This document shows, in pieces, positions 15,901 to 28,957 of a stretch of 29,306 bases of DNA. Position 1 is the stretch's first letter, and every line of letters begins with the position of its first letter. Position numbers and translations under genes: made by a program. Under the pieces are notes generated by a model. That model made no database searches. It had not been told where the DNA came from and worked only from the letters and a program-made list of their open reading frames with translations. This DNA comes from a virus: positions 1 to 29,306 of the IMG/VR virus record IMGVR_UViG_3300031565_000252; one strand, given 5' to 3'.

Positions 15901-18237
15901 AAGATTGATGAGGCTATTACGAAAGGCGAGATGGGAGAGATTGAGATTGAACCTGTATCAGAAACTGAAAGTAGTTCATTTAATAAGCACATTGATTATT
16001 TTCAGACCCGGCAATTACCAGAGACTTCGCAGATAAGAAAAATCCAAAAGCAGATGCAGGTCTTAAACGGAAAGAGATTAGCCGGTACAATCACAGCCAA
16101 GGAAGCGAATACAAAAATCCGGCAATTGCGAAAGGTCTTATTTGAAACGGCTGAAAAGGAAGGCATTGCCCTGCGAATGACCAAAGGCGGCAAGGTCTCG
16201 GTTGCGGTAAGAAAGGCCGGTACTTACGTCCCTGTTGAATTTGCGAAATATAAAAAGTTCCAAGACATCTACCCCCGGGCGCAGGACGTTACTCGCTCAA
16301 TACAGCAGATTGACGGAGCTTTATCGGTTAAGGAAAAGAAAAAAATGCCAGGCCAGGCAGGGATGGCGGAACAGCACATTCTATGGCCGACCCGTGAAAT
16401 ACACATGCAGAAAGACAGATACATAAAGGAAAAGGCCGTTCAACTTAAAAAGATACTTACGGTGAAAAAAGGAAGCAAAAAGGACACGCAAATCAATCTT
16501 GTTCTGGAGAAAATAGCAAAAGCCGATAGGGATAAACCGATAAAAGACGTATTGAGTGCGAAAACTATTAAGGCAATGGGCGTGACACCGGATGTTGTCA
16601 ATCAGGCTGTAGCACTTCGTAAATGGTATGATGAATCACATGACGAGCAGAACATCGCTCGCAGGATGCGAGACCAGAAAGAAATCCCCTATCACCGAAA
16701 TTACTCACCACAAATTTTGAGGGATGCTACTATTTGGGAACAAATAACGATGACGGGTAAAACCGCTGAGGATGTCTTTGGTAAAAAAGCCCCCATCCCC
16801 GATTACATAAGACCAAACAAACCCTTTAATCCTCGTGAAATGGCAAGGAAGGCCGGTATCCGGTATGAGGATAGAATCAAGTCGGCAACAGAATTGGCTG
16901 GCAGGTATCTATCAACGGCGGCTAAGGACATTTTTAATACGTCAATAATCCAGAACAACAAGGCTTTCATTCAGCAACTTGAAGCGATGGGATATGAAAA
17001 ACCTGCAAGATACCTGGCGGATTGGACTTCGCAGGCTTACGCCGGGATTATGCCATCCATCGACCGTGCCCTGATGTTGGGAGAAACACCCAAAGCAAGA
17101 AAGGGCATGATGAAGTGGAATCAGGTAAGAAACCTGGCCGTGTTCCCTTTGAATGTGGGTTGGACATTGGGAACACAAATAAAGTCTTTTGCTATGACTA
17201 TTGGCAGGTATGGTTCGGTAAATATAACCAGGGGATTTTACCAATGGTTGAAGCCAAGCGTAAGAAGACAGGCCGCAGAGGATTATTATTCTTTCATAGT
17301 CAAGTCCGCCAAGCAGGGGAAAGTCACAAGACAGGATGCGAAGAACCTTATCGGGGAAGAGGTCAAGATTCGCAGGACAAAAGGGGAGATTGCAAGAGAC
17401 CTGACAACTTTATTCTTAGAGGAAATGGAAAAACTTCTGACAGGGACTTCGATTAGAGCTGCACATTTACACGGTAAGAAACGGGGTTTGACAGGTGAAG
17501 CCCTAAAGAACTATGCCTCAGACGGCGGTGCTAAAACTCAATCTATGTACAACGATGAGGACAAGCCCCTCTTTTTAACGAACCTGACTGTCAAAACAGT
17601 AACACCCTACCAGACATACTGCTATGAAACTATGAACACCCTTAGAGAATGGGCTGGTAGAACGGGAACACCGCCGGACAGTAAGATGTATGCAATCTGG
17701 TCGTTGGTTCGCTATTTAGCTGCTATGGCCGTAATGAACCAGATAGAGGCGTCAATTCGTGGAAGAAAGTGGAGTTGGTTAAGATTAGTGCCAATGCCAT
17801 TTTCTGAATTATGGCTTAGTCCAATATACAAACATTTCACAAAGGAATGGTTGCCTGGCGGTTCGGGATTATTATCACCTGTAGAGACCGCATCAAGATT
17901 AGCTAAAGGTATTGATGATGTTCTTGAAACGGGTAGTTGGCGAAAACTGCGGAATGAACTTATAAAATATGGACCCGGTCTTTTTCTTGTACCCGCAGGC
18001 GTTCAATGGGCAAGGTTAGTTGATGGCATTATCACCTATTCTCAGGGCGGTGTTTATGACAGGCGAGGTAAATTATTATTTAAGATGAAAGACCCGCAGG
18101 ATTTAGCCCGTGCAATCTTCACGGGAGTTTGGTCAACAAAAGGCGGTCAAGAATATCTTGAGAAAAGAACTGGCAAAAAGCAGGAAGGCAAACGCAAAAC
18201 TCGTTTAGAGCGAGAAAAGAAGATGCTCAGGAAATAA
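12937..18237 (+). CDS. Giant modular ejection/polyvalent-type virion protein
   Basis: 1766 residues. The N-terminus carries a duplicated V/IDLGP motif. Residues about 360-965 are short modules joined by Pro/Ala/Glu-rich linkers. Module A (about 455-649) holds EELIHIEQQ at 558-566, a degenerate metallopeptidase-like EExxH. A later module, about 890-945, opens DEFKVGDVVNTKGQS and looks like a small SH3-like barrel. The C-terminal about 380 residues have aromatic and hydrophobic stretches (AVFPLNVGWTLGTQIKSFA near 1395-1415, YAIWSLVRYLAAMAVM near 1585-1600, LFLVPAGVQWARLVDG near 1682-1697), like the membrane-contacting ends of polyvalent phage proteins. Probably injected with the DNA to shield it or build the translocation channel. 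No polymerase or lysozyme motif is seen. Confidence 0.75.
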   Translation: MPLVDLGPVKKKELIDLGPAPTPITEALKETEPDFLRMPPADFEPNVPSKLAISPGIEQKEKPIGVIESFKREGAIGALKRAPFSPYRGAEEAGYLQAQKRLKEGKYPYEPRYEMTPMGGYTMVRPRRSLEQDKAFVSQYEKRKEEEQRRGFTIPAHIAQGVAELPSWMAEIYATGGIATGFKKALPRIATRAAVATGLMPHRFNETYGKSRIDRPKEKPSVSMAKAYGSVYIENFSELTGEFLVKGAKRLLAPVWKKLPFGKKFITSLGKVAEELKVVKSTKDFLNRISTRAGYSGLLAEIGEERIATIMHSIAGTEDFGAGPDAKWDERLKAGILQDLQPRNIIIETAVLSVPGMARYVAGKAMAKPLAPKITPEPQQPSGEKRKAIREKGIEEYRAKVTEQKAQQLAKELEKSLNLSPEAALRVARKKLEIDAGKATEAKAIETAKTAAERVEKPPVPAVQPSKTEIAVTRFVDEISLKVPGLIVKEGDATGLTYTQVQSGPAKGMIQPTLHINKKQLKSRLNEVQERVRQENPNATDVEIQEAQNEWIDNAIKEELIHIEQQKDGTTSNIESKWEALPKKTKQRIRLLYDRTLFGDKGRIVSNEELYLEYDRIKRQIQSTGTFTEAILFGDEDAFVSGLRKAITEETAKTAAERGVEEPQPPTETRKPPEAPKIAQKPEISPVEGEVDYEKIAIDLGGRSHALPFLPKVIRTYAEQGIERGQFELEQLVDRMSESEGDLTTGKVFKTPESPEAERYFNEMDAAIQEELGITPAEPAVEGEVVVTEVTQEMKKLPKEERIELLESFRDEIVASLPEKGPGFALLAGGRINSMLIKAGKELGLSNEEVTKFLISVTPSGQPPSKPAPKIEPAVEPEAKTKAKVGKKKISAKDEFKVGDVVNTKGQSNMADPVTINAIQGNTLKFTDAKGVEYAGMARATVRRLIEGSSWERVSGEALKAPAVEPEAKPPAKEKEFEIEPGKFYTQAKIDEAITKGEMGEIEIEPVSETESSSFNKHIDYFQTRQLPETSQIRKIQKQMQVLNGKRLAGTITAKEANTKIRQLRKVLFETAEKEGIALRMTKGGKVSVAVRKAGTYVPVEFAKYKKFQDIYPRAQDVTRSIQQIDGALSVKEKKKMPGQAGMAEQHILWPTREIHMQKDRYIKEKAVQLKKILTVKKGSKKDTQINLVLEKIAKADRDKPIKDVLSAKTIKAMGVTPDVVNQAVALRKWYDESHDEQNIARRMRDQKEIPYHRNYSPQILRDATIWEQITMTGKTAEDVFGKKAPIPDYIRPNKPFNPREMARKAGIRYEDRIKSATELAGRYLSTAAKDIFNTSIIQNNKAFIQQLEAMGYEKPARYLADWTSQAYAGIMPSIDRALMLGETPKARKGMMKWNQVRNLAVFPLNVGWTLGTQIKSFAMTIGRYGSVNITRGFYQWLKPSVRRQAAEDYYSFIVKSAKQGKVTRQDAKNLIGEEVKIRRTKGEIARDLTTLFLEEMEKLLTGTSIRAAHLHGKKRGLTGEALKNYASDGGAKTQSMYNDEDKPLFLTNLTVKTVTPYQTYCYETMNTLREWAGRTGTPPDSKMYAIWSLVRYLAAMAVMNQIEASIRGRKWSWLRLVPMPFSELWLSPIYKHFTKEWLPGGSGLLSPVETASRLAKGIDDVLETGSWRKLRNELIKYGPGLFLVPAGVQWARLVDGIITYSQGGVYDRRGKLLFKMKDPQDLARAIFTGVWSTKGGQEYLEKRTGKKQEGKRKTRLEREKKMLRK
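14272..15842 (+). repeat. In-frame linker repeats bounding modules of the giant protein
   Basis: Three pairs of exact direct repeats lie in the Pro-rich linkers: 28 nt at 14272-14299 and 14884-14911 (204 codons apart); 16 nt at 14993-15008 and 15275-15290 (94 codons); 17 nt at 15559-15575 and 15826-15842 (89 codons). All spacings are multiples of three. The first pair flanks a visibly AT-richer module. The arrangement would let modules be gained or lost by recombination without breaking the frame. Confidence 0.8.
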
Positions 18238-18241
18238 TAGG

Positions 18242-18496
18242 TCAATCGGAAATATGTTTTTCTTTTCTCTTGCTTTTGATGTCTTGAATTTTGGCTCTGT
18301 GGAGACCAAAAACAGTGCCCATTATGAAGAAAAATCCTGCTGCAAAAATATATTCAATAATCTCATCTGCTTTATCACTAAAAATGAGAACGAGAATGGC
18401 TATAAAAACGAGAATGCAAAAACAGCCACTTAGGCCCAAAAATGTTTCTGAGTATGTTAACTTGTCCCATAGTTTTTTAAGTTTTGAATTTTTCAT
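18242..18496 (-). CDS. Two-pass small membrane protein (minus strand)
   Basis: 84 residues: a basic N-terminus (MKNSKLKKLWDKL), a first membrane segment LGLSGCFCILVFIAILVLIF (about 20-39), a short acidic loop SDKADE, a second segment IIEYIFAAGFFFIMGTVFGL (about 46-65), and a charged basic tail ending KRKEKHISD. It has GAGGG seven bases upstream of the ATG and an ATGA overlap with the 33-aa gene before it, both on the minus strand, which makes it far more credible than the plus-strand frame over the same DNA. It lies tail to tail with the giant gene. A holin, antiholin or superinfection-type membrane protein would fit, but none is demonstrated. Confidence 0.74.
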   Translation of the reverse strand: MKNSKLKKLWDKLTYSETFLGLSGCFCILVFIAILVLIFSDKADEIIEYIFAAGFFFIMGTVFGLHRAKIQDIKSKRKEKHISD

Positions 18497-18594
18497 AAGT
18501 AATCCCTCATAGAGTAGGCAAAAATGCAGGTTAATACCAATAGAATAATGGCGACTATGTTCCAGAACAGGCTATCGGTTTTAGGTTGTTTCAT
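18493..18594 (-). CDS. 33-residue single-pass membrane micro-protein
   Basis: The peptide opens MKQPKTDSLFWN, then one membrane segment IVAIILLVLTCIFAY, then SMRDYL. GGGAG lies seven bases before its ATG, and its TGA overlaps the next minus-strand ATG (ATGA). The consensus promoter at 18628-18655 places the mRNA start about 27 nt upstream. Its size and layout suit a regulatory or toxin-like membrane peptide acting with the two-pass protein. No family is recognised. Confidence 0.7.
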   Translation of the reverse strand: MKQPKTDSLFWNIVAIILLVLTCIFAYSMRDYL

Positions 18595-18627
18595 CCCGAA
18601 TCTCCCGGCCTCCATGCCTTCCGTATG

Positions 18628-18655
18628 ATTATAAGGTACTGATATAAATTGTCAA
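18628..18655 (-). promoter_or_regulatory. Consensus sigma70 promoter for the minus-strand membrane genes
   Basis: On the minus strand TTGACA (18655-18650), a 16-nt spacer and TATAAT (18633-18628) match both consensus hexamers exactly. The predicted start is near 18621, 27 nt before the 33-aa gene. Both hexamers are perfect, so strong use by the host RNA polymerase early in infection or in a lysogen is likely. Confidence 0.82.
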
Positions 18656-18660
18656 GGAAA

Positions 18661-18680
18661 AAATGAGATTTAGGCTAATA
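18661..18680 (+). repeat. 20-bp direct repeat, copy 1
   Basis: Positions 18661-18680 and 18824-18843 are identical 20-mers in the same orientation, 163 bp apart. Read on the minus strand, each lies directly upstream of a TTGACA box, so each may be an upstream promoter element. Copy 1 also recreates the first six codons of the ATP-grasp gene (MRFRLI). Confidence 0.85.
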
Positions 18681-18682
18681 AG

Positions 18683-18790
18683 AAAAAAGGGCAGGCAGGA
18701 GTCGAACCTGCAACGGAATCGCAACCCCGCTTCCAGACCAGCGTTTAGTATAGGCGGGTCATTCAGACCACGCCCCGCCGCAACCCTTCC
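18683..18790 (-). ncRNA. Self-contained tRNA-like small RNA
   Basis: The minus strand has a perfect tRNA T-arm, GCAGG-TTCGACT-CCTGC (18711-18695), followed by CTGCCCTT (18694-18687), which pairs with AAGGGTTG (18788-18781) with one T-T mismatch to give an 8-bp acceptor-like helix. A GGCGGG/CCCGCC hairpin lies in the D-arm position. No canonical anticodon arm fits: the best hairpin, CGCT/AGCG, has an 8-nt loop. A promoter-like TTGACA-17-TAGATT starts it near 18790, and a T6 run (18688-18683) ends it. No CCA is encoded. It could be a decayed tRNA, a tRNA mimic or a 3'-tRNA attachment remnant. Confidence 0.5.
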
Positions 18791-18796
18791 CTTTAC

Positions 18797-18825
18797 AATC
18801 TAATAGATAAGATGAGAGTTGTCAA
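18797..18825 (-). promoter_or_regulatory. Promoter of the tRNA-like RNA
   Basis: Minus-strand TTGACA (18825-18820), a 17-nt spacer and TAGATT (18802-18797). The start would fall near 18790, exactly where the structured RNA begins. Its -35 region overlaps the start of copy 2 of the 20-bp repeat and the ATP-grasp start codon. Confidence 0.6.
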
Positions 18826-18843
18826 ATGAGATTTAGGCTAATA
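18824..18843 (+). repeat. 20-bp direct repeat, copy 2
   Basis: Second copy of the repeat at 18661-18680. It contains the ATG and the first codons of the ATP-grasp gene, so one sequence serves as plus-strand coding DNA and minus-strand promoter-upstream DNA. Confidence 0.85.
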
Positions 18844-20046
18844 TCAAAACACGCAGACGGTATAGGTCTCTTGTACCGGATATGGCAGGAAGGCCACGAT
18901 GTATCGTTCTGGGTGCAGGAGAAGAAGGCCAAGCCCACTTACAGGGGCATACTGCCCCAGGTTCAGACTTACGCCCAGGACCTAAAGAAAAGCGATATTG
19001 TTTTCTTCGATATGGTCGGTCTCGGTTTTTTGGCCGATAAGCTCAAGAAATCCGGCATTGCCGTCTATGGCGGGGGCGGGATTAACGACAAACTGGAACT
19101 CGACAGAGTGTTCGGTATTCAAACCGCAGAGGCCGCCAGAATTAAGGTTCCCGAATACAAGCCTTTCAGCTCTTACGAGAAGGCGGTCGATTTCGTAAAA
19201 AACAGTAAGAAAATATGGGTCTTCAAACCGCTTGACAATAAAAGCCCTATGCTCACCTACGTTTCCGAAGGCGCGGACGATATGGTTGGTATTCTTGAGC
19301 ATTACAAACCTAAGAAGTTCATTTTGCAGGAGAAAATTGAAGGGACGGAAATCTCGACCGAGGCGTGGTATGTCAACGGCGAGCTTGTTCCTAACAGCAT
19401 AAACTCGACCATCGAGACGAAAAGGTTTATGGACGGCGACAAAGGCCCGAACACCGGCTGCATGACGAGTGTCGTATGGTTCCATAAGGGTAAACCAAAG
19501 ATATATTTTCAGACCCTTGCAAAACTTGAGAAATTCTTGAAACGGAAAAAATACTCCGGGCCGCTCGATGTCAATTGCATCGTTACCAAAGAGGGGCCGT
19601 ACTTTTTGGAGTTTACTTCACGGTTCGGATATAACGCCATTTACGCCGCATTATCTGAATTTGGCGAGTTTGGTTCGTTTCTCTCCAAGTTGGCGCGTGG
19701 TAAGATTCCGAAAATAAAACCTTCACGACAGTATTGTGGGGCGGTCAGACTTTCAATACCCCCCTATCCCAACGATGTCGATGCAACTGCGGGCAGGCCC
19801 ATAGGGGTAAAGTCGCTCAAAGACGTATTTTTGCTCGATGCAAAATACGACGGCAAAATGGTAACCGCTGGTGTCGATGGCGTGGTGTGTGAAGTAACCG
19901 CCAAAGCGGATGATCTTAACACTTTGGAAAAACAGTTATATGCGAAAGTCGATAGAATTAAAATCCCCGACAAACAGTACCGTTCAGACGCTGTAAAAGT
20001 CGCGCAAGAACGGTTAGGAGAAATCAATGCGCAAACAAAAAGGTGA
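18826..20046 (+). CDS. PurD-like ATP-grasp enzyme
   Basis: 406 residues, close to the length of phosphoribosylamine-glycine ligase (PurD). An N-terminal Rossmann-like part (GIGLLYRIWQEGHDVSFWV; DIVFFDMVGLGFLADKLKKSGIAVYG; LELDRVFGI at 90-98) precedes an ATP-grasp core with LQEKIEGTEISTEAW (167-181), FMDGDKGPNTGCM (201-213), PLDVNCIV (246-253) and the metal site LEFTSRFG (261-268). PurD has E.N.RFGDPE at the last site. Here Asn is Thr and DPE is missing, so the acceptor substrate has probably changed. It likely makes an amide or peptide-like bond with ATP. The start is weakly supported (GAGAG) and lies within the duplicated 20-bp element. Confidence 0.8.
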   Translation: MRFRLISKHADGIGLLYRIWQEGHDVSFWVQEKKAKPTYRGILPQVQTYAQDLKKSDIVFFDMVGLGFLADKLKKSGIAVYGGGGINDKLELDRVFGIQTAEAARIKVPEYKPFSSYEKAVDFVKNSKKIWVFKPLDNKSPMLTYVSEGADDMVGILEHYKPKKFILQEKIEGTEISTEAWYVNGELVPNSINSTIETKRFMDGDKGPNTGCMTSVVWFHKGKPKIYFQTLAKLEKFLKRKKYSGPLDVNCIVTKEGPYFLEFTSRFGYNAIYAALSEFGEFGSFLSKLARGKIPKIKPSRQYCGAVRLSIPPYPNDVDATAGRPIGVKSLKDVFLLDAKYDGKMVTAGVDGVVCEVTAKADDLNTLEKQLYAKVDRIKIPDKQYRSDAVKVAQERLGEINAQTKR

Positions 20047-20218
20047 CCTAAGACTTTGGGTAATTATGGCTATCAGCTTGGCTGGACTAATCTACAATAT
20101 CGTAAGTGGTTACGCTATACGTGGGAACGAACTGAAACACATCAACCAAACTCTTAATGACGTTCGAAGTCGCGTTGAACGAATCGAAAATATGTTTTTG
20201 AAAGGAGACCTGAAATGA
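20027..20218 (+). CDS. Small membrane protein with coiled-coil tail
   Basis: 63 residues: MRKQKGDLR, one membrane segment LWVIMAISLAGLIYNIVSGYAI, then a charged heptad helix LKHINQTLNDVRSRVERIENMFL. It starts 20 nt inside the ATP-grasp gene behind TTAGGAGAAATCA and ends with an ATGA overlap to the next gene. The layout is that of small phage lysis or anchoring proteins (pinholin- or XhlA-like in size), but there is no diagnostic motif. The position in a coupled run with another hydrophobic protein and a hydrolase supports a lysis or envelope role. Confidence 0.65.
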   Translation: MRKQKGDLRLWVIMAISLAGLIYNIVSGYAIRGNELKHINQTLNDVRSRVERIENMFLKGDLK

Positions 20219-20418
20219 ACTGGATTGAAATTGTGAATTTGATTGTGGCTTTGTGGCCGTTGATTCTGCAAATTCTCAATGCCATAAGCGATGAGAGCAA
20301 GCGGAATCAAGTTGCAGATGCGGTAACGACCGTTGCCGGTCGTATGTTTACCGGCGACATCCAAGTCGCAAATGCCGCTGATGTTATTGCTAAATTAAAA
20401 GAGCCATTGTTGGCGTAA
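20215..20418 (+). CDS. Small holin-like protein
   Basis: 67 residues. The N-terminal MNWIEIVNLIVALWPLILQIL is one long hydrophobic helix. The rest is a soluble helical segment (DESKRNQVADAVTTVAGRMFTG..QVANAADVIAKLKEP). The start overlaps the previous stop (ATGA) with AAAGGAG ahead, and its stop overlaps the next ATG (TAATG), giving tight coupling to the hydrolase-like gene. A single-helix holin is plausible, but the segment could also be amphipathic. Confidence 0.6.
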   Translation: MNWIEIVNLIVALWPLILQILNAISDESKRNQVADAVTTVAGRMFTGDIQVANAADVIAKLKEPLLA

Positions 20419-21170
20419 TGCAAAAGGACTTCCACTTTCACGTTACCGATGTTCTGGCCTGCAAGGCCGGAATAGAAGAACCGCTGATAGTGGCCTGGGC
20501 TAATCAGTACACAGACGAACTAAAGAAGGCCAGGCTACACGGCATCCAGACCCAATCCGGCATATTGGGCAATTGGGCTGACCGTCAAATCCAGCGGACG
20601 GTCTTGGTCCCATTCCATTTCTTGCCGGGCGACAATCTCGAAAAGACTTGTGTTGTAACGCCCGATTCTCGGTTAGCCAGGATGCTAATAGATGAGGCGG
20701 GGGACTTCTTTGAATTGGGAATTGCGCTCCACTCTTTCCAGGATACCTATTCACATCAGGGATTCACCGGCTGGCTTGAAAAAGAAAACGAATGTTTCCC
20801 CTGGTGGTATCTCGGCAATCCCCAGCCGCCGATAGGCCACGCCGAAATGGGCGTTATTCCTGATGTAGTCAGTGCCGAATGGACGGATTTGCGGACCGGC
20901 ATAGTAATAGACAACCGGCGAAGGGCTTTGGCCTGCGCCAAGAGAACCTATGAGATTTTATGCGGGTTCACCGAAAAGGAAAACAACTGGCCGGATTTGA
21001 GGGTAGAATTTCAGACACTTTTCGCCATAAGGTCTTATGATGAGCGCAAGAAAACCTTACTGAAGCTGGGCAGCGGCAAGAGATTTTCAGAACTTACCTA
21101 CTCGAAAACGTACCGGGACGAATTTGAAACCGCCGCCGCCAAACAGCTCGGTATCGTAACAATGGCATAA
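20418..21170 (+). CDS. DUF6765-like predicted zinc hydrolase
   Basis: 250 residues. The MQKDFHFHVTDVLACKAG opening, QYTD (30-33), PFHF (65-68), the central LGIALHSFQDTYSHQGFTG (100-118) and PIGHAEMGVIPD (138-149) match DUF6765-type proteins. They place His6/His8, Asp33, His67, His105, Asp109, His113, His141 and Asp149 as candidate metal ligands, like those of the zinc-dependent phospholipase C/P1-nuclease fold. It would cleave a phosphodiester or lipid bond. No signal peptide is seen. Coupled behind two small membrane proteins and followed by a terminator, it occupies the place of an endolysin. The substrate is inference. Confidence 0.7.
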   Translation: MQKDFHFHVTDVLACKAGIEEPLIVAWANQYTDELKKARLHGIQTQSGILGNWADRQIQRTVLVPFHFLPGDNLEKTCVVTPDSRLARMLIDEAGDFFELGIALHSFQDTYSHQGFTGWLEKENECFPWWYLGNPQPPIGHAEMGVIPDVVSAEWTDLRTGIVIDNRRRALACAKRTYEILCGFTEKENNWPDLRVEFQTLFAIRSYDERKKTLLKLGSGKRFSELTYSKTYRDEFETAAAKQLGIVTMA

Positions 21171-21180
21171 AACCTCTTTC

Positions 21181-21216
21181 AAATGCCCCGATTCAACCTT
21201 GCTTTCGGGGCATTTT
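21181..21216 (+). terminator. Intrinsic terminator after the putative lysis genes
   Basis: An 11-bp stem AAATGCCCCGA/TCGGGGCATTT with a 13-nt loop ends in T residues. It separates the late block from the promoter at 21278. Confidence 0.88.
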
Positions 21217-21277
21217 CCCCCTCTTGACTTTGTCCTAAAAACCATCTGTCCAAACACTCATTTTTTTTATTTTGTTC

Positions 21278-21306
21278 TTGACCAATCACAATAAGTTGTC
21301 GATAAT
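21278..21306 (+). promoter_or_regulatory. Sigma70 promoter of the small-gene block
   Basis: TTGACC (21278-21283), a 17-nt spacer and GATAAT (21301-21306); each hexamer is one base off consensus. TAATAT at 21303-21308 is a less well spaced alternative -10. Preceding DNA is AT-rich. The start is expected near 21313, about five bases before arm A of the leader structure. Confidence 0.72.
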
Positions 21307-21312
21307 ATGAAT

Positions 21313-21444
21313 ATGAAGACTATCAGGGCTATTCAGATGAATCAATCGAGTAGAGGATTTCGCGCAATCAGTTTTTTTGTAGGGCAAAGTTTTTGCACTT
21401 CTTTCTCCCTGATAGTCGTTCAGAGCTTTGCCCTACTTTTTTTT
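21313..21444 (+). promoter_or_regulatory. Pseudoknot-capable leader with looped terminator
   Basis: Four arms occur in the order A (21318-21328), B (21379-21389), A' (21407-21417), B' (21426-21436). A/A' is an exact 11-bp complement and B/B' another exact 11-bp complement, extendable to 16 bp (21379-21394 with 21421-21436). B-B' plus eight T is an intrinsic terminator whose 26-nt loop contains A'. A is at the transcript 5' end and contains the AGGG ribosome site of a leader ORF. Pairing of A with A' would give a pseudoknot. This could be a cis attenuator of the gene at 21456 or a free-standing RNA of about 130 nt. Confidence 0.72.
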
Positions 21445-21459
21445 GAGGTGATAAGATGA
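21337..21459 (+). CDS. Possible 40-residue hydrophobic leader peptide
   Basis: An ORF begins at 21337 behind CAGGG, passes through the whole terminator and ends with an ATGA overlap on the next ATG at 21456. The product is basic at the N-terminus (MNQSSRGFR) and then hydrophobic (ISFFVGQSF, FSLIVVQSFALLFFEVI). An in-frame ATG at 21307 would add ten residues but lies at the promoter. Translation would hold the terminator open, as in leader-peptide attenuation. The frame may also be fortuitous, since the structure alone explains the sequence. Confidence 0.35.
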   Translation: MNQSSRGFRAISFFVGQSFCTSFSLIVVQSFALLFFEVIR

Positions 21460-21665
21460 GAACAGAAACAAAGAAATTCGTTATTGACTGTATCAACCAA
21501 CGCCGATGCGATGACTTTTATCGAGCAAAATTGGCTTTTAGAAATTGCACGCCCGAAGAAATGAATCAAGAGTATGGGCAATCCGGCCAAACCCGCCAAC
21601 AAATTCTCGATGGTTACGAACAACGCGAGAAACAATGCGATGAAGCTATCACAGAACTTGAGTAG
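21456..21665 (+). CDS. Small hypothetical protein, first gene after the leader
   Basis: 69 residues, charged and helical, with scattered Cys (VIDCINQRRCDDFYRAKLAFRNC; REKQCDEAITELE) and a Gln-rich middle. GAGGTG lies just before the ATG, immediately after the leader terminator's T run, so read-through of that terminator would control it. No family recognised. Early phage genes of this size often bind host proteins, but this is only context. Confidence 0.68.
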   Translation: MRTETKKFVIDCINQRRCDDFYRAKLAFRNCTPEEMNQEYGQSGQTRQQILDGYEQREKQCDEAITELE

Positions 21666-21673
21666 GTGATATA

Positions 21674-21883
21674 GTGGCTGAACAAGACATAACATCCAAG
21701 TTAGAAGCTATGAATCGCATTAGTGAATTGGTTAGGCAACGCGATGATTTGCTGGTAAAATTGGAAAGTATGATTTGCAAGGGATGTAATTGCTCTGATT
21801 GCAAAATAGCCAGAGCAACCATAGCAAAGGCTCAACCATCTAATACGTCGGTACAACCTAAGAAATCGGGGGTCATAAGATGA
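21674..21883 (+). CDS. Small Cys-containing coiled-coil protein
   Basis: 69 residues starting at a GTG (21674) with AGGTGA before it. The N-terminal half is a coiled-coil helix (SKLEAMNRISELVRQRDDLLVKLESM), followed by CKGCNCSDCKIA with four closely spaced Cys, a likely zinc knuckle or metal cluster. The C-terminus is Ser/Pro/Lys-rich. An ATGA overlap joins it to the next gene. Role unknown. Confidence 0.65.
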   Translation: MAEQDITSKLEAMNRISELVRQRDDLLVKLESMICKGCNCSDCKIARATIAKAQPSNTSVQPKKSGVIR

Positions 21884-22053
21884 AGGTATATTTTCTCCGT
21901 TACTGCAATCGTGGAATGGCCCATTATTCGGCTTACAATGGCGATATTGACGCCTTTTACCAGCAGAATGGTACAGAATCTATGTCGGTAGCTGTGTGGT
22001 CCCGCGATTGGGATGCCAGCTTTACGCGACAGGGATTTTATCGCCTAATTTAA
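21880..22053 (+). CDS. Small hypothetical protein (57 aa)
   Basis: 57 residues starting MKVYFLRYCNRGMAHYSAYNG and ending WDASFTRQGFYRLI, aromatic and mixed alpha/beta. The start overlaps the previous stop (ATGA). It is the last gene before the RNA island. No recognised family and no membrane segment. Confidence 0.6.
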   Translation: MKVYFLRYCNRGMAHYSAYNGDIDAFYQQNGTESMSVAVWSRDWDASFTRQGFYRLI

Positions 22054-22084
22054 CAAATTATTTTTTCTTATTGAAAAGTGAATA

Positions 22085-22176
22085 CGAGAGCAAACCGCGA
22101 AAGCGGCTCACGAAGCTCAGAAACGTCAACTGAGGGAAACTATCAGGCGTGACCAGCCCGGGAGAGTAGCGGGCAT
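22085..22176 (+). ncRNA. Unknown structured RNA, first of the island
   Basis: About 90 nt between boxes 1 and 2 with no ORF. Three hairpins are visible: CCGC-GAAA-GCGG (22096-22107, GNRA loop, extendable by flanking GAG/CTC), CTCAG/CTGAG with a 9-nt loop (about 22116-22134), and GCCCG/CGGGC with a 9-nt loop (about 22156-22174). Purine-rich GAAAC/AGAAAC joins them. There is no T-arm consensus, so it is not a canonical tRNA. Its place in a tRNA array suggests co-processing with the tRNAs. Confidence 0.5.
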
Positions 22177-22194
22177 ATTTTGACAAGTGAATAC

Positions 22195-22266
22195 TGCGGG
22201 GTAGAGAAGTGGTATCTCGTCAGGCCCATAACCTGGAAATCGCTGGTTCGAATCCAGCCCCCGCTA
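22195..22266 (+). tRNA. tRNA-Met(CAU), initiator-like
   Basis: A full 72-nt cloverleaf. The acceptor pairs GCGGGG/CCCCGC with a T1-T72 mismatch at its end. The D-stem GAGA/TCTC gives A11:U24. The anticodon stem is TCAGG/CCTGG with loop CCCATAA, and the T-arm is GCTGG-TTCGAAT-CCAGC. CAU at 22227-22229 reads AUG. The 1:72 mismatch and A11:U24 are bacterial initiator hallmarks, but only two of the three G:C anticodon-stem pairs are kept and position 33 is C rather than U. Discriminator is A and CCA is not encoded. Box 2 ends one base before the 5' end. Confidence 0.9.
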
Positions 22267-22310
22267 TTATGGGCTCGACAGTTTGAAAAGTGAATATGAG
22301 AGGCGGCGGC

Positions 22311-22426
22311 GGGGACGGTAGCCCAGTCAGGTAGGGCGTCGGCCTGAAAAGCCGAAGGTCGCAGCAGGCTTGCCTCGCTGCGGTGCGAATAGGCAAGCTG
22401 GGTTCAAATCCCGCCCGTTCTCGCCA
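22311..22426 (+). tRNA. tRNA(GAA) with 8-bp acceptor and very long variable arm
   Basis: The acceptor is GGGGACGG/CCGTTCTC (eight pairs, two G-T), then G discriminator and encoded CCA. The D-arm is GCCC-AGTCAGGTA-GGGC. The anticodon arm TCGGC-CTGAAAA-GCCGA reads GAA (22346-22348), a Phe anticodon. The T-arm (C)TGGG-TTCAAAT-CCCG(C) has a C-C mismatch at 49-65. Between anticodon and T arms are 42 nt instead of about 5. They can form an 8-bp hairpin (22368-22375 with 22391-22398) or a competing 6-bp one (22360-22365 with 22377-22382). The 8-bp acceptor plus big variable arm recalls tRNA-Sec, but the anticodon is not UCA. Confidence 0.75.
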
Positions 22427-22485
22427 AAGGTAGGCTCTTGAGAAATCAATCCTGCCCGCCTCTCTCCCTTTTGAAAGGAGAAAAA

Positions 22486-22749
22486 ATGATTTTATCAAAA
22501 ATAGCAATTAGAGAACATAGAGCATTGAAAAGCCGGTGGTCTGACGAGAGCAGATTAAGCCAACAGGTTTTAATAGCTGTTTTGTGGCGGTTGGAGCAAC
22601 AGAACGAATTGCTCACAAAGTTAATTCGACAGAAAAAGACGAAAAAGCCACTCACAAAATATCAACGATTTTTCGGCAAACAAATCAAAAAAGGCTTAAC
22701 GGCAAAGGAGACGGCCAAACTTTGGCAAGAGAAGCAGACACAACTTTGA
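22486..22749 (+). CDS. Small basic helical protein
   Basis: 87 residues from the ATG at 22486, which has GAAAGGAGAAAAA directly upstream; the ATG at 22438 would read back into the tRNA flank and is disfavoured. Helical throughout, basic in the second half (RQKKTKKPLTKYQRFFGKQIKKGLTAKETAKLWQE), where the KGLTAKETAKLW segment has a helix-turn-helix-like cadence. The ribosome site lies in a short inverted repeat (CTCC...GGAG), possibly limiting initiation. It sits inside the RNA island, and its stop is overlapped by box 4. Possibly nucleic-acid-binding; no family recognised. Confidence 0.62.
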   Translation: MILSKIAIREHRALKSRWSDESRLSQQVLIAVLWRLEQQNELLTKLIRQKKTKKPLTKYQRFFGKQIKKGLTAKETAKLWQEKQTQL

Positions 22750-22764
22750 CAAGTGAATCTTAAG

Positions 22765-22823
22765 CGCAGGGCGGTGGGGCCTCCCAACCGAGAAAAGGTG
22801 CGCGGGAGTGAGCGAAGCCGCCC
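22765..22823 (+). ncRNA. Unknown structured RNA, last of the island
   Basis: After box 4, a nested fold is visible: outer stem GGGCGG/CCGCCC (22769-22774 with 22818-22823), middle stem CTCCC/GGGAG (22781-22785 with 22804-22808), inner ACC/GGT with loop GAGAAAA. A short T run follows. It lies in the leader of the gene at 22842 and could be a cis element, or a co-processed small RNA like the others of the island. Confidence 0.5.
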
Positions 22824-22841
22824 ATTTTTAGGGAGTGAATT

Positions 22842-23051
22842 ATGATTGGTATTGATTTGATAACAAACCGTTTTTTCACAACAACTGGCGAAGATATATG
22901 GAAAGTTGAGTGGTATTTCACTCAGCCTTCGTGCAGGCTAAAAAATCTCGAAACAGGCGATGTGGAAGAATTTGGAATGGGAGGGCTAACGGCACAAAAA
23001 TTTCATCGTATCGAAATGCCCATAAAACCTAAAGAACCTTTACCTTTTTAG
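22842..23051 (+). CDS. Small hypothetical protein, probably beta-barrel-like
   Basis: 69 residues: MIGIDLITNRFFTTTGEDIWKVEWYFTQPSCRLKNLETGDVEEFGMGGL, then a polar tail ending EPLPF. Alternating hydrophobics and an ETGDVEEF turn suggest a small beta-barrel like those of phage host-interaction proteins. AGGGAG precedes the ATG, seven bases after the structured RNA region ends in T. No family recognised. Confidence 0.62.
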   Translation: MIGIDLITNRFFTTTGEDIWKVEWYFTQPSCRLKNLETGDVEEFGMGGLTAQKFHRIEMPIKPKEPLPF

Positions 23052-23062
23052 GAGAAAGCATT

Positions 23063-23236
23063 ATGAGAAAAATCATAATAGAAATCAAGAAGATGTTAAG
23101 GCGGGAGTATAAAATGAACGGCATCCAGGCGACTTCCATTATTGCCGATGCTTTCCGAATACTTCCCCAAGAAGGTGCAAACCCAAAAGATTTGGCACAG
23201 ATTGCGATACGTTTAGCGAACAGTGGAATTTATTGA
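23063..23236 (+). CDS. Small hypothetical helical protein (57 aa)
   Basis: 57 residues: a basic N-terminal helix MRKIIIEIKKMLRREYKMNG followed by a helical domain (IQATSIIADAFRILPQEGANPKDLAQIAIRLANSGIY). TTAGGAGAAAGCATT before the ATG is a strong ribosome site. An internal Met (at KMNG) also has GCGGGAG upstream and is an alternative start. It ends 10 nt before the lipoprotein gene. No family recognised. Confidence 0.58.
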   Translation: MRKIIIEIKKMLRREYKMNGIQATSIIADAFRILPQEGANPKDLAQIAIRLANSGIY

Positions 23237-23246
23237 AAGGAGAAAA

Positions 23247-23477
23247 ATGAGCAGAGAAAGAAAGGCAAAGTATGTGTTGTGTTTGGTAATGGCGTGGCTG
23301 GCCGCCCTGTTTATTTTTGTTTTGTCGGGCTGTCAGATGGGACGTGGAGCCGTTGGCGACACAAAATGGTTACTTCAAGCTGCCTTCGATAATATGCGAC
23401 CGGCAGAAGAAGACCAGCAACCGGCGCCAAGGCGTCAAGGAATGACGACAGATGATTTGTTTCACCGTGGCAAATAG
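23247..23477 (+). CDS. Small predicted lipoprotein
   Basis: 76 residues from the ATG at 23247 (AAAGGAGAAAA upstream); the earlier ATG at 23223 is disfavoured. A basic start MSRERKAK, a hydrophobic core YVLCLVMAWLAALFIFVL and a lipobox LSGC (positions about 25-28) predict signal peptidase II cleavage and lipid attachment at Cys. The mature part is about 49 residues and polar, with a Gln/Pro stretch EEDQQPAPRRQ. Phage lipoproteins of this size act as outer spanins or as superinfection-exclusion factors. The low Pro content and distance from the hydrolase make exclusion at least as likely. Presence in this early block is compatible with either. Confidence 0.7.
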   Translation: MSRERKAKYVLCLVMAWLAALFIFVLSGCQMGRGAVGDTKWLLQAAFDNMRPAEEDQQPAPRRQGMTTDDLFHRGK

Positions 23478-23549
23478 GCAAGGACGACGAGTACGGGGCA
23501 ATGCTCGAAAGGATGCCCCAAGGAATTATACTTATAGAAAGGATGAACG

Positions 23550-23768
23550 ATGCAAGAAAGAGACGGAACATTTACACAGTTATCTGAAACAGAAGTTGGG
23601 AATTTGCGGCCTTGGCAGCTTTCAAAAACAATATGCGAAGGCCAAATTTTCAAGGTTAAGAAATGCCATTTTCAGGTAACGGAAATTACAAAAAAAGGAA
23701 TTGTTGCCAAGGGCATTTCTCGCAAAGAATATCACGACCTAAAAAGAGGCCGCCCAGATTGGTGTTGA
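23550..23768 (+). CDS. Small hypothetical protein
   Basis: 72 residues, MQERDGTFTQLSETEVGNLRP then VKKCHFQVTEITKKGIVAKGISRKEYHDLKRG, mixed beta and basic. A GAAAGGATGAACG ribosome site and short gaps on both sides make it the best frame here; an overlapping frame from 23452 has no such site. The basic C-terminal half might bind nucleic acid. No family recognised. Confidence 0.6.
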   Translation: MQERDGTFTQLSETEVGNLRPWQLSKTICEGQIFKVKKCHFQVTEITKKGIVAKGISRKEYHDLKRGRPDWC

Positions 23769-23780
23769 GGAGTAATGATT

Positions 23781-23972
23781 ATGGCTAAAGAAGACGAAAT
23801 TTGCCCTGTAAAGGATTGCCAAAATCCTGCAACAGTAAAATTTGGGCCACTAAAAGTATGCTGGCAATGCTTTGATAAATGTGCATACGATATGCAACCG
23901 CTTATCCTGAAACCAACGGAGAAAGTAGAGGACAAGCAAGAAGCCCTCTCCGAGGAGAAGCAAGATGACTGA
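23781..23972 (+). CDS. Small zinc-ribbon-like protein
   Basis: 63 residues from the ATG at 23781; GGAG lies eight bases before it, whereas the ATG at 23775 would be only two bases from that site. CPVKDC near the start and CWQCFDKC further on provide five Cys in a zinc-ribbon-type layout. The C-terminus VEDKQEALSEEKQDD is encoded by the repeated junction sequence that supplies the next gene's ribosome site. It overlaps that gene by 8 nt. Function is unknown; a nucleic-acid or host-protein binding ribbon is plausible. Confidence 0.62.
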   Translation: MAKEDEICPVKDCQNPATVKFGPLKVCWQCFDKCAYDMQPLILKPTEKVEDKQEALSEEKQDD

Positions 23973-24638
23973 AGAGCGCAGGAAAAATCCAGAGGGATGG
24001 CCGGATACAGACCCTTATCCGTTTCGGGATTTGAAGTCTCTGCACAAAGAACCTCCCGATTGCCCTTTTGTTGCCGCTGACAAAGAATATGCCAAAGAAG
24101 TCAAGGTCGAAGAGCTTGGTGATTATGCTTATATTATGAGAGTTGCCTGGCAAAATCTCAACGAACTGTATAAAAAAAACCAACAACTCGAAGACCATAT
24201 TAAGTGGCTAAATAATGTTGGCGGCGAGCGATTAAATACGGCTTGTGGCATAGACATCCTTTGTAGAGATATGGTACTCAAAAAAAGGAAAAAACAAGCC
24301 GAGGAGAAGCCCAATGGCCAAAGACCTGCCTGAAAAACTTACAGTACAAAGTATCCTGGGTGTACGAACAATAACAGATGATTATTGTAGCCATCAAATG
24401 TCCGTAGAAGTATTTGACGAAATCATCCGCCGCTGCAAAGCCCACAATCCTTGGATACTAACAGATGACCCACCTAACGATATAGATTGGGACAAAAAAG
24501 TGTTTGCGTTGGAATGTGATTCGGAGATACCGCGAGTTATGACTATGGCAGAGATATTTTTAGATGAAGGTTCCGAGGTTGAATACTGGAAGCCAATAGT
24601 TTTACCAGAGCAAGCCCTCTCCGAGGAGAAGCAAGATG
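23941..24638 (+). repeat. Repeated gene-junction/RBS sequence
   Basis: Exact 27-nt copies at 23941-23967 and 24612-24638 run from the C-terminal codons (EALSEEKQD/QALSEEKQD) through GAGGAG to the next ATG. A shorter relative lies at about 24296-24316 (AAGCC-GAGGAGAAGCCCAATGGC). Three consecutive junctions are therefore related, while the genes between them are not. Confidence 0.8.
23965..24333 (+). CDS. Hypothetical protein, accessory block
   Basis: 122 residues. A Pro-rich N-terminus (NPEGWPDTDPYPFRDLKSLHKEPPDCPF) is followed by a long helix (AYIMRVAWQNLNELYKKNQQLEDHIKWLNNV) and a basic end (KKRKKQAEEKP). GAGGAG before the ATG is supplied by the junction repeat. It overlaps the next gene by 20 nt. 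No known domain is visible; a coiled-coil dimer is likely. Confidence 0.6.
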   Translation: MTEERRKNPEGWPDTDPYPFRDLKSLHKEPPDCPFVAADKEYAKEVKVEELGDYAYIMRVAWQNLNELYKKNQQLEDHIKWLNNVGGERLNTACGIDILCRDMVLKKRKKQAEEKPNGQRPA

Positions 24639-24643
24639 GCTAA
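24314..24643 (+). CDS. Hypothetical acidic protein, accessory block
   Basis: 109 residues, acidic, with Trp and Pro (HNPWILTDDPPNDIDWDKKVFALECDSEIPRVMTMAEIFLDEGSE). Its ribosome site GAGGAG lies in the upstream gene's end. Its own C-terminus EQALSEEKQDG repeats that of the gene at 23781, because the same junction DNA was reused. The high acidity would suit a DNA-mimic or host-protein-binding role, but nothing in the sequence proves it. Confidence 0.6.
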   Translation: MAKDLPEKLTVQSILGVRTITDDYCSHQMSVEVFDEIIRRCKAHNPWILTDDPPNDIDWDKKVFALECDSEIPRVMTMAEIFLDEGSEVEYWKPIVLPEQALSEEKQDG

Positions 24644-24806
24644 AGACAGATGCGATAAGTGTGAGTGGTGGGGATGTGCCGGGAAAAGAGAGAAATGGTT
24701 GTTATTGGGTTGGTGCAAAAACCGCAAATCCCGAAGATACAACGGGGATGTACGAGAAGATGATTGTTGTGGCGAATTTAAGGTGAAGCCCAATAGCTCT
24801 ACATAG
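24636..24806 (+). CDS. Small Cys/Trp-rich protein (56 aa)
   Basis: 56 residues, MAKDRCDKCEWWGCAGKREKW then GWCKNRKSRRYNGD and DDCCGEFKVK. Six Cys (CDKC, GC, WC, CC) suggest a zinc-binding or disulphide micro-protein. It is coupled to the upstream gene through the repeated junction (GAGGAG, 8-nt overlap). No family recognised. Confidence 0.58.
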   Translation: MAKDRCDKCEWWGCAGKREKWLLLGWCKNRKSRRYNGDVREDDCCGEFKVKPNSST

Positions 24807-24826
24807 CTTTAGAAAGGAATCAAACG

Positions 24827-25018
24827 ATGGGTACAAAAATCCATTTAGACGAAAAGGAAATCATAGAGGCCATCGCCCAGTATATTTCAAGGGATGGTTA
24901 TTCAATAAAAACCTCAACTATTACCAATGATAAAGACATAACTCTTTGCCATCACGAAGCAGACAGAGCTAAAGGTGTGTATGTTTACGATGCTTACATT
25001 GAAGTTGTACCTAAATAG
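24827..25018 (+). CDS. Small hypothetical protein
   Basis: 63 residues, MGTKIHLDEKEIIEAIAQYISRDGY then an alternating-strand second half ending VYDAYIEVVPK, with a helix-strand-strand feel. AAAGGAATCAAACG precedes the ATG. A terminator follows, so it closes this sub-block. The family is not recognised. A CHHE segment (CHHEAD) might bind metal. Confidence 0.62.
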   Translation: MGTKIHLDEKEIIEAIAQYISRDGYSIKTSTITNDKDITLCHHEADRAKGVYVYDAYIEVVPK

Positions 25019-25040
25019 CTTTTCATCACCCTCCTCCGAA

Positions 25041-25074
25041 AGGTTCCCAGCCTTCGGGCTGGGCGCCTTTTTTG
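25041..25074 (+). terminator. Intrinsic terminator in the accessory block
   Basis: CCCAGCC-TTCG-GGCTGGG, a stable 7-bp stem with a UUCG tetraloop, lengthened by AGG/CCT across a small internal loop, ends in six T. Confidence 0.88.
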
Positions 25075-25087
25075 AAAGGATAGGATT

Positions 25088-25237
25088 ATGCGTAAGGCAC
25101 TAACAATACTCACCTGTTTTGCGGTGTTCGCTGCTGCGGCTATATGTTTCCTGCAATACGCAAAAGCCGAGCCTGTTACATCACTAACTTTGCTTTTGGT
25201 GGGTGGGCTTTATATCGAAAGGATAATAGTAAAATGA
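25088..25237 (+). CDS. 49-residue membrane micro-protein
   Basis: MRKALTILTCFAVFAAAAICFL, QYAKAEP, then VTSLTLLLVGGLYIERIIVK: two hydrophobic segments separated by a short polar turn, or a signal peptide cut after AKA. It follows the terminator by 14 nt with GAAAGGATAGGATT, and its stop overlaps the YopX-like gene (ATGA), so the two are translated together. No promoter is visible in the gap. A membrane micro-protein of unknown role. Confidence 0.6.
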   Translation: MRKALTILTCFAVFAAAAICFLQYAKAEPVTSLTLLLVGGLYIERIIVK

Positions 25238-25680
25238 GACCATACAGAGGCGAAAGAATTGATAACGGCGAGAGGGTATATGGCAACCTGATTATTCATA
25301 ATGCACGGGAAGCCATCCACGAAAAACAGCCATTGAAAGCATTTATCCAAGAGCGGGATAAGCGGTGGACGGACGAATCCAACGATAGATGTTGGACGCA
25401 TCTTTGCTTTGAAGTCATCCCCGAAACAGTAGGCCAGCAAACAGGCCTCAAGGACAAGAACGGCAAAGACCTGGACTGGTGGGAGAATGATATTGTTAAA
25501 GATACAAGACGATATATTCCAAAAAAGGAAAGAACTTATAAAATAATATTTAAGCAAGGAAGTTTTTGGTTGAAATCAATTCACGGCAAATTATGCCTTA
25601 CTTGTGAATGCCTGACTCCATTTCTTCATATTTTCAATAAAATCGGCACAGTCCACGACAACCCGGAGCTACTGAAATGA
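25234..25680 (+). CDS. YopX-like phage protein, copy 1
   Basis: 148 residues from the ATG at 25234. The MRPYRGERIDNGERVYGNLI opening, the central PETVGQQTGLKDKNGKDLDWWENDIVKD (about 68-95) and the end FNKIGTVHDNPELLK match the YopX family, in which PETVGQ.TGLKDKNG..I.EGDI and G.I.DNPELL are the defining blocks. The function of YopX proteins is unresolved; they are frequent in phage accessory regions. A longer in-frame start at 25144 lies inside the micro-protein gene and is rejected. An ATGA overlap joins it to a second, divergent YopX-like gene. Confidence 0.8.
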   Translation: MRPYRGERIDNGERVYGNLIIHNAREAIHEKQPLKAFIQERDKRWTDESNDRCWTHLCFEVIPETVGQQTGLKDKNGKDLDWWENDIVKDTRRYIPKKERTYKIIFKQGSFWLKSIHGKLCLTCECLTPFLHIFNKIGTVHDNPELLK

Positions 25681-26075
25681 GCAGAGAGATAAAATTCAGA
25701 GCACTCAATAGGGCAACGAATGAATGGTATTACGGATGTCCAAATCCAGATGAATCAAATCCTTATGAAATGGTTCTCTGGAGTTTTTGGATTAAAGTTG
25801 ATGAAGGTATTTTAGACCCCGAAACAGTAGGCCAGAGTATAGACCTCAAGGACAAGAACGACAAGGAGAGATACGCTTCTGACATAGAGAAATCTGAAGA
25901 TGGTGGAGTATATGAAATTATCTGGGTTCAGGAATGGGCGGGGTTCTTTTGGAGAATAATAAAAAAGAGCAAATACGAACCAGGCAAAATTGTTACAAAT
26001 ATTGGCGAGATTGTTCCTTTGGGCAGGCGAAATACAGAAATCATCGGCAACATCCACGACAAGGAGGCGGAATGA
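25677..26075 (+). CDS. YopX-like phage protein, copy 2
   Basis: 132 residues. MSREIKFRALNRATNEWYYG, PETVGQSIDLKDKNDKERYASDIEK and TEIIGNIHDKEAE follow the same order as copy 1 but the family block is eroded (TGLKDKNGK became IDLKDKNDK; GDIV became SDIE). It is probably a diverged paralogue made by tandem duplication or acquired separately. Coupled by ATGA on both sides, with AAGGAGG near its end serving the next gene. Confidence 0.75.
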   Translation: MSREIKFRALNRATNEWYYGCPNPDESNPYEMVLWSFWIKVDEGILDPETVGQSIDLKDKNDKERYASDIEKSEDGGVYEIIWVQEWAGFFWRIIKKSKYEPGKIVTNIGEIVPLGRRNTEIIGNIHDKEAE

Positions 26076-26383
26076 ACCCAAGCGAGACGACAGGAATGAT
26101 GAATCGAGGTTCTTTATGGCGGGGCTTTGCCGGAAAAATCAAACAGTCCCGACGCCGCGAGGAGCATCTTCACAACGAGATGTATCCTCTGAAAGTCGGC
26201 GAAAAGTATCTCATAAGCGCAAAGGTACAGACTGGCCTTGCCAATCGTTTATTACCCAACGGTATTTATACAATCCAAGAGGTCAAATATTTTGAAGGTA
26301 TTGGTTTTGGTACACAATTTAGAGTAAGTGGCAAAAAAGGTGTATATGTTAAGAAGTGGTACAACTTCAAAAGGGAGATATGA
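26072..26383 (+). CDS. Small hypothetical protein with beta domain
   Basis: 103 residues from the ATG at 26072 (ATGA overlap, AAGGAGG eight bases upstream); a much longer in-frame start at 25934 lies in the YopX-like gene and is rejected. A basic helical N-terminus (GFAGKIKQSRRREEHLHNEM) is followed by a beta-rich part (YPLKVGEKYLISAKVQTG..IYTIQEVKYFEG..TQFRVSGKKGVYVKKW), which could be an SH3- or OB-like fold. No family recognised. Confidence 0.65.
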   Translation: MNPSETTGMMNRGSLWRGFAGKIKQSRRREEHLHNEMYPLKVGEKYLISAKVQTGLANRLLPNGIYTIQEVKYFEGIGFGTQFRVSGKKGVYVKKWYNFKREI

Positions 26384-26386
26384 GTA

Positions 26387-26662
26387 ATGAGCGAAATAGA
26401 TAAAATAATCGAGCCTATAAAAGAATGGTATGGTGGAGGAACAGAAGGTGAACGTACAAACCTTGAAATATTAGCCGATGCAATCGCTGACCTTCAAGAC
26501 AACAGGAAAGAATTGTTTGTGCTACAAGCCGAGAACAAATGGCTGAAAGAAGAACTTATAGAATTTGGTCGTCACGGGCAAGGATGCTCAAGGCAATGGG
26601 GCACAAAATATCGTTGTAAATGTGGCTGGGAGAAGATTGAGCAAGCCCTAAAGGAGATATGA
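26387..26662 (+). CDS. Hypothetical protein with coiled-coil and Cys pair
   Basis: 91 residues: a helical N-terminal part (DKIIEPIKEWYGG...NLEILADAIADLQDNRKELFVLQAENKWLKEELIEF) with heptads, then GCSRQWGTKYRCKCGWEKIEQ with three Cys. The start uses the GGAGATATGAGTAATG junction seen again before the next gene. No family recognised. The helix-plus-Cys layout suits a dimer with a small zinc site. Confidence 0.62.
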   Translation: MSEIDKIIEPIKEWYGGGTEGERTNLEILADAIADLQDNRKELFVLQAENKWLKEELIEFGRHGQGCSRQWGTKYRCKCGWEKIEQALKEI

Positions 26663-26960
26663 GTAATGTTAGAAATATTTTGGCGAAAAAAAACTTATCA
26701 AGTGAAAAATGAAATTGACGCTTTTGTTGATATAGATGCTTATGCTGAAATTGAGAAAAATCACGCCAAACTCCAAGACGAGAACAAGCGTCTGAAAGAG
26801 AAAATCAAAAAAATTTGTGTAGGAATAGACGCTCCTAAATTTGAACCGGACAAAATCGAAATTACGAAGATAGACTTAACGAAACCAGAGCTTGCTTATT
26901 TGTGGGGTTGGGAATCTGCCATATTAGAATGTGGCGAAATTTTGAGCAAGCCCTAAAGGA
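26637..26960 (+). repeat. 19-nt repeat at two gene ends read in different frames
   Basis: TTGAGCAAGCCCTAAAGGA occurs at 26637-26655 and 26942-26960. In the first gene it codes EQALKE, in the second LSKP plus the stop. Its GAGCAAGCCCT part recurs at the junction near 24609. The change of frame shows that the DNA, with its ribosome site, is what is conserved, not the peptide. Confidence 0.8.
26666..26956 (+). CDS. Hypothetical coiled-coil protein
   Basis: 96 residues. After MLEIFWRKKTYQVKNEIDAFVDIDAYAEIEKN comes a coiled coil (HAKLQDENKRLKEKIKKICVGI), then an acidic end with LAYLWGWESAILECGEILSKP. It resembles its neighbour at 26387 in having a mid-protein LQAEN/LQDEN coiled coil, so the two may be distant paralogues. 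The start follows GGAGATATGAGTA. The last codons are part of the 19-nt repeat. Function unknown. Confidence 0.62.
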   Translation: MLEIFWRKKTYQVKNEIDAFVDIDAYAEIEKNHAKLQDENKRLKEKIKKICVGIDAPKFEPDKIEITKIDLTKPELAYLWGWESAILECGEILSKP

Positions 26961-26965
26961 TAACA

Positions 26966-27196: not shown

Positions 27197-27197
27197 T

Positions 27198-27712: not shown

Positions 27713-27713
27713 A
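27428..27713 (+). repeat. Lys/Ala-tail repeat shared by two genes
   Basis: A 24-nt unit repeats at 27428-27451 and 27452-27475. A block of about 60 nt starting at 27452 recurs, nearly identical, at 27654-27713. The second copy lies in the next gene's N-terminus in its own frame, so a basic tail was copied onto a second, unrelated protein. Confidence 0.82.
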
Positions 27714-28908: not shown

Positions 28909-28957
28909 TCGAGGGTGGTGGCGAAACTTCACCGCCCTTTATTTAGAAAGCAAAGGA

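Follow-up and report, generated by a model that had tools for sequence, protein, structure and literature searches.

Does an intrinsic terminator whose loop can pair with the 5' end of its own transcript act as a switch for the genes that follow it, and if so, in which direction? The question is raised by a leader RNA, here called leader 1, in the 29,306-nucleotide (29.3-kb) window analysed, part of the genome of a tailed phage. Leader 1 comes after the last gene of the late operon, and a series of small early-type genes follows it. That last gene (20418-21170) encodes a DUF6765 protein and is followed by an inverted repeat at 21181/21205, ahead of leader 1. The first gene after the leader (21456..21665, plus strand) begins with an ATG at 21456, 11 nt past the T run of the terminator, and encodes a protein of 69 amino acids; one 45% relative was found, on a 203-kb phage contig that has no leader of this type. 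We tentatively place leader 1 at the head of the early operon of the phage, as one of two leaders of similar build in the same genome.

Reading the locus base by base confirmed the sigma-70-type promoter that had been proposed in a preliminary description, TTGACC-17-GATAAT (21278..21306, plus strand), with its -35 at 21278-21283, its -10 at 21301-21306 and a spacer of 17 bp. It scores 10/12, which ranks it near the top of the 19 promoter-like sites counted across 18000-29306. Upstream of it lies an element of 51 bp (21232..21282) in which the direct repeats GTCCTAAAA and GTCCAAACA, 16 bp apart, are followed by an A/T-rich tract reaching into the -35. A terminated leader RNA of 132 nt (21313..21444) is predicted from the spacing to the -10 and the end of the T run. 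Its arm A, GACTATCAGGG (21318..21328, +6 to +16), is the exact 11-bp complement of arm A', CCCTGATAGTC (21407..21417), which resides within the terminator loop, as had been described. The terminator itself consists of arms B (21379..21393) and B' (21422..21436), forming 15 consecutive pairs with two G-U among them, and a T8 tract (21437..21444); the stem and the T8 tract described earlier are therefore present, with 15 pairs in place of the 16 given. The order A-B-A'-B', noted as permitting a pseudoknot, also holds, and by approximate energies the formation of both helices at once is favoured. On the sequence, the architecture of promoter, arm A, terminator and A' is well supported.

A search with 21230-21460 revealed one copy of the 51-bp element outside the window, at 14686-14736 of the sister contig (G001), with 84% identity over 51 bp by BLAST. 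The stretch that runs from this second copy into leader 2 corresponds to L093 8187-8352. Leader 2 is preceded by the same GTCCTAAAA/GTCCAAACA repeats 16 bp apart, an A/T-rich tract and the promoter TTGACA-16-GATAAT, whose -10 is followed by six bases and then by ATGAACGTAGCGC...GGCCCC...GCGCTGCGTTC...GGGGCTTTTTT. In leader 2, arm A is GAACGTAGCGC (+3 to +13) and A' is GCGCTGCGTTC; they form an 11-bp helix that includes one G-U, and a 3x3 internal loop interrupts the 15 pairs of the terminator stem. A' is again inside the terminator loop, where it directly adjoins B' with no spacer, and the predicted terminated RNA is 86 nt in length. The arm order A-B-A'-B' and the helix lengths of 11 and 15 pairs are common to the two leaders, and in both the distance from the -10 to an ATG is 6 nt. 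Apart from the promoter and the starting TATGAA, the bodies of leaders 1 and 2 show no alignment beyond chance, and their pairing is therefore not inherited sequence. Leader 2 came to light through its promoter element and was tested for the architecture afterwards, so that it serves as an independent check. A related locus, L103 (89% terminase identity), has a different sequence upstream of the terminase, with no leader 2 within the stretch covered.

Homologous leaders had been proposed as a source of compensatory changes in both helices. Our search in IMG/VR and genomes returned the same-species contigs 3300031566_005444 and 3300031673_000910 with an identical leader 1, and the remaining relatives are without the region, so that no compensatory changes were readable. 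Contig 3300031566_005444 is 99.75% identical to the window over 5.6 kb and its leader 1 is identical in sequence; covariation within leader 1 therefore offers nothing. All 14 differences over the 5.6 kb fall in 20818-20916, in the DUF6765 gene, and this 100-bp patch is suggestive of a recombination or conversion tract. The contig also includes parts of the genome that are missing from the window, and the coordinates, by which contig and window overlap at both ends, imply a circularly permuted phage genome of about 42 kb.

The complementarity was further compared with chance expectation. The window contains three exact 11-mer inverted repeats within 150 bp, two of which are the leader 1 arm pairs, with 1.0 expected in all. 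When the terminator was kept fixed and the rest shuffled, a run of 11 bp, with no more than one G-U, joined +1..+20 to the loop in 0.06% of the leader 1 shuffles and 0.04% of the leader 2 shuffles; a looser test based on duplex energy in 30-nt segments gave 0.4% and 2.4%, respectively. We then scanned both strands of the window and L093 for stems with a T run whose loops have an 11-bp partner no more than 120 nt upstream, and only leaders 1 and 2 were retrieved. In 400 simulated second-order genomes the same architecture occurred 0.005 times per genome with a stem of at least 8 pairs and 0.055 times with a stem of at least 5. It was absent from 238 kb of other phage loci, and 306 kb of model phages (Lambda, HK022, N15, P2, T7, P1 and part of P4) gave one weak match, in N15; the stem there is of 5 pairs, A adjoins B, and the match was taken as chance.

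Both leaders have an ATG at the predicted +1 and a frame that is open through the terminator. In leader 1, the frame from the predicted 5'-terminal AUG (21313..21459, plus strand) comprises 48 codons and its stop, TGA 21457-21459, overlaps the ATG at 21456 of the next gene. It is in frame with a second ATG at 21337, from which the previously described short ORF, reading through the terminator and overlapping the next start codon, was confirmed. The leader 2 ORF runs for 29 codons through the terminator and ends some 10 nt short of the start codon that follows. Such frames are open in 8% (leader 1) and 52% (leader 2) of shuffles and are weak evidence when taken alone, and the leader peptides have no match in Pfam or PHROGs. 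A Shine-Dalgarno sequence in arm A, as had been suggested, is seen in leader 1, where AGGG precedes the ATG at 21337, and has no counterpart in leader 2, which is without an internal in-frame start of this kind. The start feature common to both leaders is the AUG at the predicted transcript start, not the Shine-Dalgarno sequence of arm A. This ATG may have been inherited along with the promoter. AUGs at the very 5' end of E. coli mRNAs can load 70S ribosomes and have an effect on the gene downstream (PMC4965119); the leader 1 ORF may likewise be started at its 5' AUG.

The minimum free energy of the leader 1 RNA is -36.4 kcal/mol (z -2.6). In nested folding along the transcript, A:A' has the lowest energy of all structures from about nt 100 to 118 in leader 1 (-30.5 kcal/mol at nt 106) and from nt 58 to 76 in leader 2 (-19.8 kcal/mol at nt 64), and is replaced by the terminator only once B' is nearly complete (-36.4 kcal/mol for leader 1 and -28.2 kcal/mol for leader 2). 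A and A' share no bases with B and B', and the nested folds are exclusive only through the pseudoknot topology. Approximate energies, estimated by hand with Dirks-Pierce-type penalties, are -39.3 kcal/mol for the pseudoknot versus -36.4 kcal/mol for the best nested fold in leader 1, and -37.6 versus -28.2 kcal/mol in leader 2; by these estimates the coexistence of A:A' and B:B' is plausible. The loops of the H-type pseudoknots would be 50/13/4 nt in leader 1 and 16/6/0 nt in leader 2. On a geometric estimate the leader 2 pseudoknot would be strained, because its loop 3 is 0 nt and A' abuts B'.

The reading that we prefer, although with less than firm confidence, is that both leaders are cis-acting attenuators of phage operons, gated by the prompt loading of a ribosome. 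RNA synthesis would start at or beside AUG 21313, and the 5' AUG would remain free until A' is transcribed, which corresponds to about 95 nt in leader 1 and 54 nt in leader 2. A ribosome loaded before A' is made would trail RNA polymerase through the leader ORF and cover B, and the operon would be read. If no ribosome arrives in time, A' would capture A and the 5' AUG region would be buried; the terminator would then close around A:A' as a pseudoknot, and the 132-nt (or 86-nt) RNA would be released with its 5' end sealed. Arm A lies within the first 16 nt of both leaders, and an 11-bp helix at this position would bury the 5' AUG region. Ribosome gating is favoured because A is found at the extreme 5' end in both leaders and the frames pass the terminator, and action in cis is favoured since neither loop has a better partner in the phage than its own A. 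The direction of A:A' control is one that we infer. A compact switch had been suggested for this locus, and the finding of a second leader with the same A-B-A'-B' order in different sequences, together with the favourable pseudoknot energies, strengthens that suggestion. With regard to the accompanying proposal that A:A' hides the ribosome site and stabilises termination, the sequence is compatible with A:A' either favouring or delaying termination: its dominance in nested folds equally suits a transient antiterminator.

It is possible, though somewhat doubtful, that the two leaders form a separate class of phage attenuators, where the terminator loop seals a 5'-terminal start codon, the time taken to transcribe A' sets the window for the first ribosome, and two copies with unrelated helices serve separate operons. 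The leaders may represent a novel form of leader attenuation. If this is true, an RNA timer of very small size (86-132 nt), needing neither ligand nor protein, would tie phage expression to the speed of ribosome loading and would join leaderless initiation, pseudoknots and intrinsic termination, which are usually studied apart. The two versions, different in sequence, define the rule well enough for others to be searched for and for reporter testing.

The main rival to ribosome gating, which we consider unlikely, is that A:A' is a transient antiterminator: formed early, it would hold B in its loop and delay B:B', giving readthrough by default, and loss of A to a factor, a ribosome or a second RNA would result in termination. 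Such a role agrees with the sequential folding, where A:A' dominates until B' is nearly complete, and with leader 2, where A' abuts B' and the helices would hinder each other. It agrees less well with the absence of bases shared between the two helices, unlike usual antiterminators, and with the approximate energies that favour both together; nor would it need A to be at the very 5' end, where A sits in both leaders. A more improbable explanation is a small RNA, whose A' loop would act in trans as in P4 CI or Gifsy-1 IsrK, or whose 5' end would be protected by A:A' in a stable transcript. Searched for in the phage, a site that would pair more strongly with either loop than its own A was not found, and the loops of leaders 1 and 2 differ in sequence and would need different targets. 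About 700 nt downstream, at 22139-22147, the non-coding DNA ahead of the tRNAs contains a 9-nt copy of A, ACTATCAGG, as a potential partner of A' in trans; leader 2 is without a downstream copy of its A. The leader does possess its own promoter and a strong terminator, and IsrK is known to serve both as a small RNA and as a read-through mRNA (PMC4825925), but no Rfam match was obtained.

That the folded leaders are loaded on RNA polymerase, which would then pass its own and later terminators like the put elements of HK022, seems highly improbable: put RNAs are about 70 nt, have sequence in common, form two stem-loops and suppress terminators further downstream (PMC9378689), whereas leaders 1 and 2 have no common body sequence and each ends in a terminator. 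The resemblance is that HK022 likewise has two put copies, one per early promoter, of which putL starts near +1 (PMC9378689), and that a long operon follows leader 1. Lastly, the terminator might merely insulate the operon, with A:A' arising by chance or as an inverted repeat that a protein binds at the DNA level. An 11-bp repeat alone is indeed not very rare in 29 kb, but the position, the recurrence and the scan statistics argue against chance and make this explanation very unlikely. A DNA site would be expected to have the same sequence in both leaders, but the arms differ, and the G-U pair of leader 2 breaks the DNA symmetry; the operator reading was rejected on the lack of common sequence between the A arms.

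Among known systems, both leaders resemble intrinsic-terminator attenuators in having a promoter and a stem-loop with a T run upstream of the first gene. With pyrBI/trp-type attenuators they share the promoter-proximal intrinsic terminator and a short leader ORF entering it, and presumably also the coupling of translation to readthrough. They differ in that neither leader has competing arms that share bases with the terminator, in the pairing of the loop with the 5' end, and in the start codon at the predicted +1. P4 SeqA/CI and Gifsy-1 IsrK (PMC4825925) are similar in the phage promoter directly before a terminator, the short and read-through forms and the complementarity within one leader. 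The P4 leader was nevertheless rejected as an example of the same architecture on reading its sequence, which has a nested CGCCTG/CAGGCG pair upstream of the terminator and not the order A-B-A'-B'. A check for antisense pairing of the P4 CI type gave 11 bp upstream; on the downstream side, leader 1 has 9 nt at 22139 and leader 2 has no complement. In the P1 C4 antisense RNA, the upstream segments a1 and b1 of its own transcript are annotated as complementary to the downstream RNA; unlike our leaders, C4 also has downstream targets, and no terminator with loop-to-upstream pairing was found in P1. Leader 1 resembles E. coli mRNAs with a 5'-terminal uAUG and a Shine-Dalgarno-led start (PMC4965119) in combining a 5' AUG with an in-frame start of this kind, but in those mRNAs the downstream start is that of the gene itself and terminator-loop pairing is absent from the description. 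In Rfam, only tRNAs reached the gathering score in the window and nothing came near threshold for either leader; isrK gave no match for the leaders at E up to 5, and a separate genome search was likewise silent, as were its controls. No described case of a terminator loop paired with the 5' end of its own RNA was found in the open-access literature.

Elsewhere in the viral collection, the upstream element with its promoter gave only one dissimilar match, obtained with a relaxed promoter pattern. It lies on an unrelated phage contig (L097 556-623, minus strand), where GTCCAAAA repeats 16 bp apart are present upstream of a TTGACA/TATAAT promoter. We rejected this match as a further leader since it has an ordinary 5' UTR; the promoter-upstream repeat may be a site for a wider regulator. 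Back to back with leader 2, a late-operon promoter, TTGCAT-17-TATAAT, is present in L093 8100-8190 along with a near-palindrome, ATACCGGCTTTTCTGGTAT. The first gene of this late operon, divergent from leader 2, has its ATG 8 nt after the -10 TATAAT. Near the start of the late operon, L093 7669-7854 (minus strand) encodes a small protein whose helix-turn-helix resembles sigma-70 region 4 and which is a candidate regulator of these promoters.

Other RNA and promoter elements are visible in the window. On the minus strand, two sigma-70 promoters in the region 18661-18849 have a 26-bp upstream element in common (copies at 18661-18686 and 18824-18849). The first precedes a structured RNA of about 114 nt (18795-18682) with a T-arm-like GGTTCGACTCC and the end CCTGCCCTTTTTT, which is weakly tRNA-Sec-like (20 bits), and the second, a perfect 12/12 promoter, is found before the ORF 18496-18242. 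A tRNA at 22312-22422, whose anticodon appears to be GAA and whose variable region carries an insert of about 40 nt, was detected by Rfam (46 bits) and missed by ARAGORN. In 22071-22302, three TTGAAAAGTGAATA-like copies each stand before an RNA unit (two tRNAs and an unannotated stretch of about 90 nt) and are possibly processing or spacer elements.
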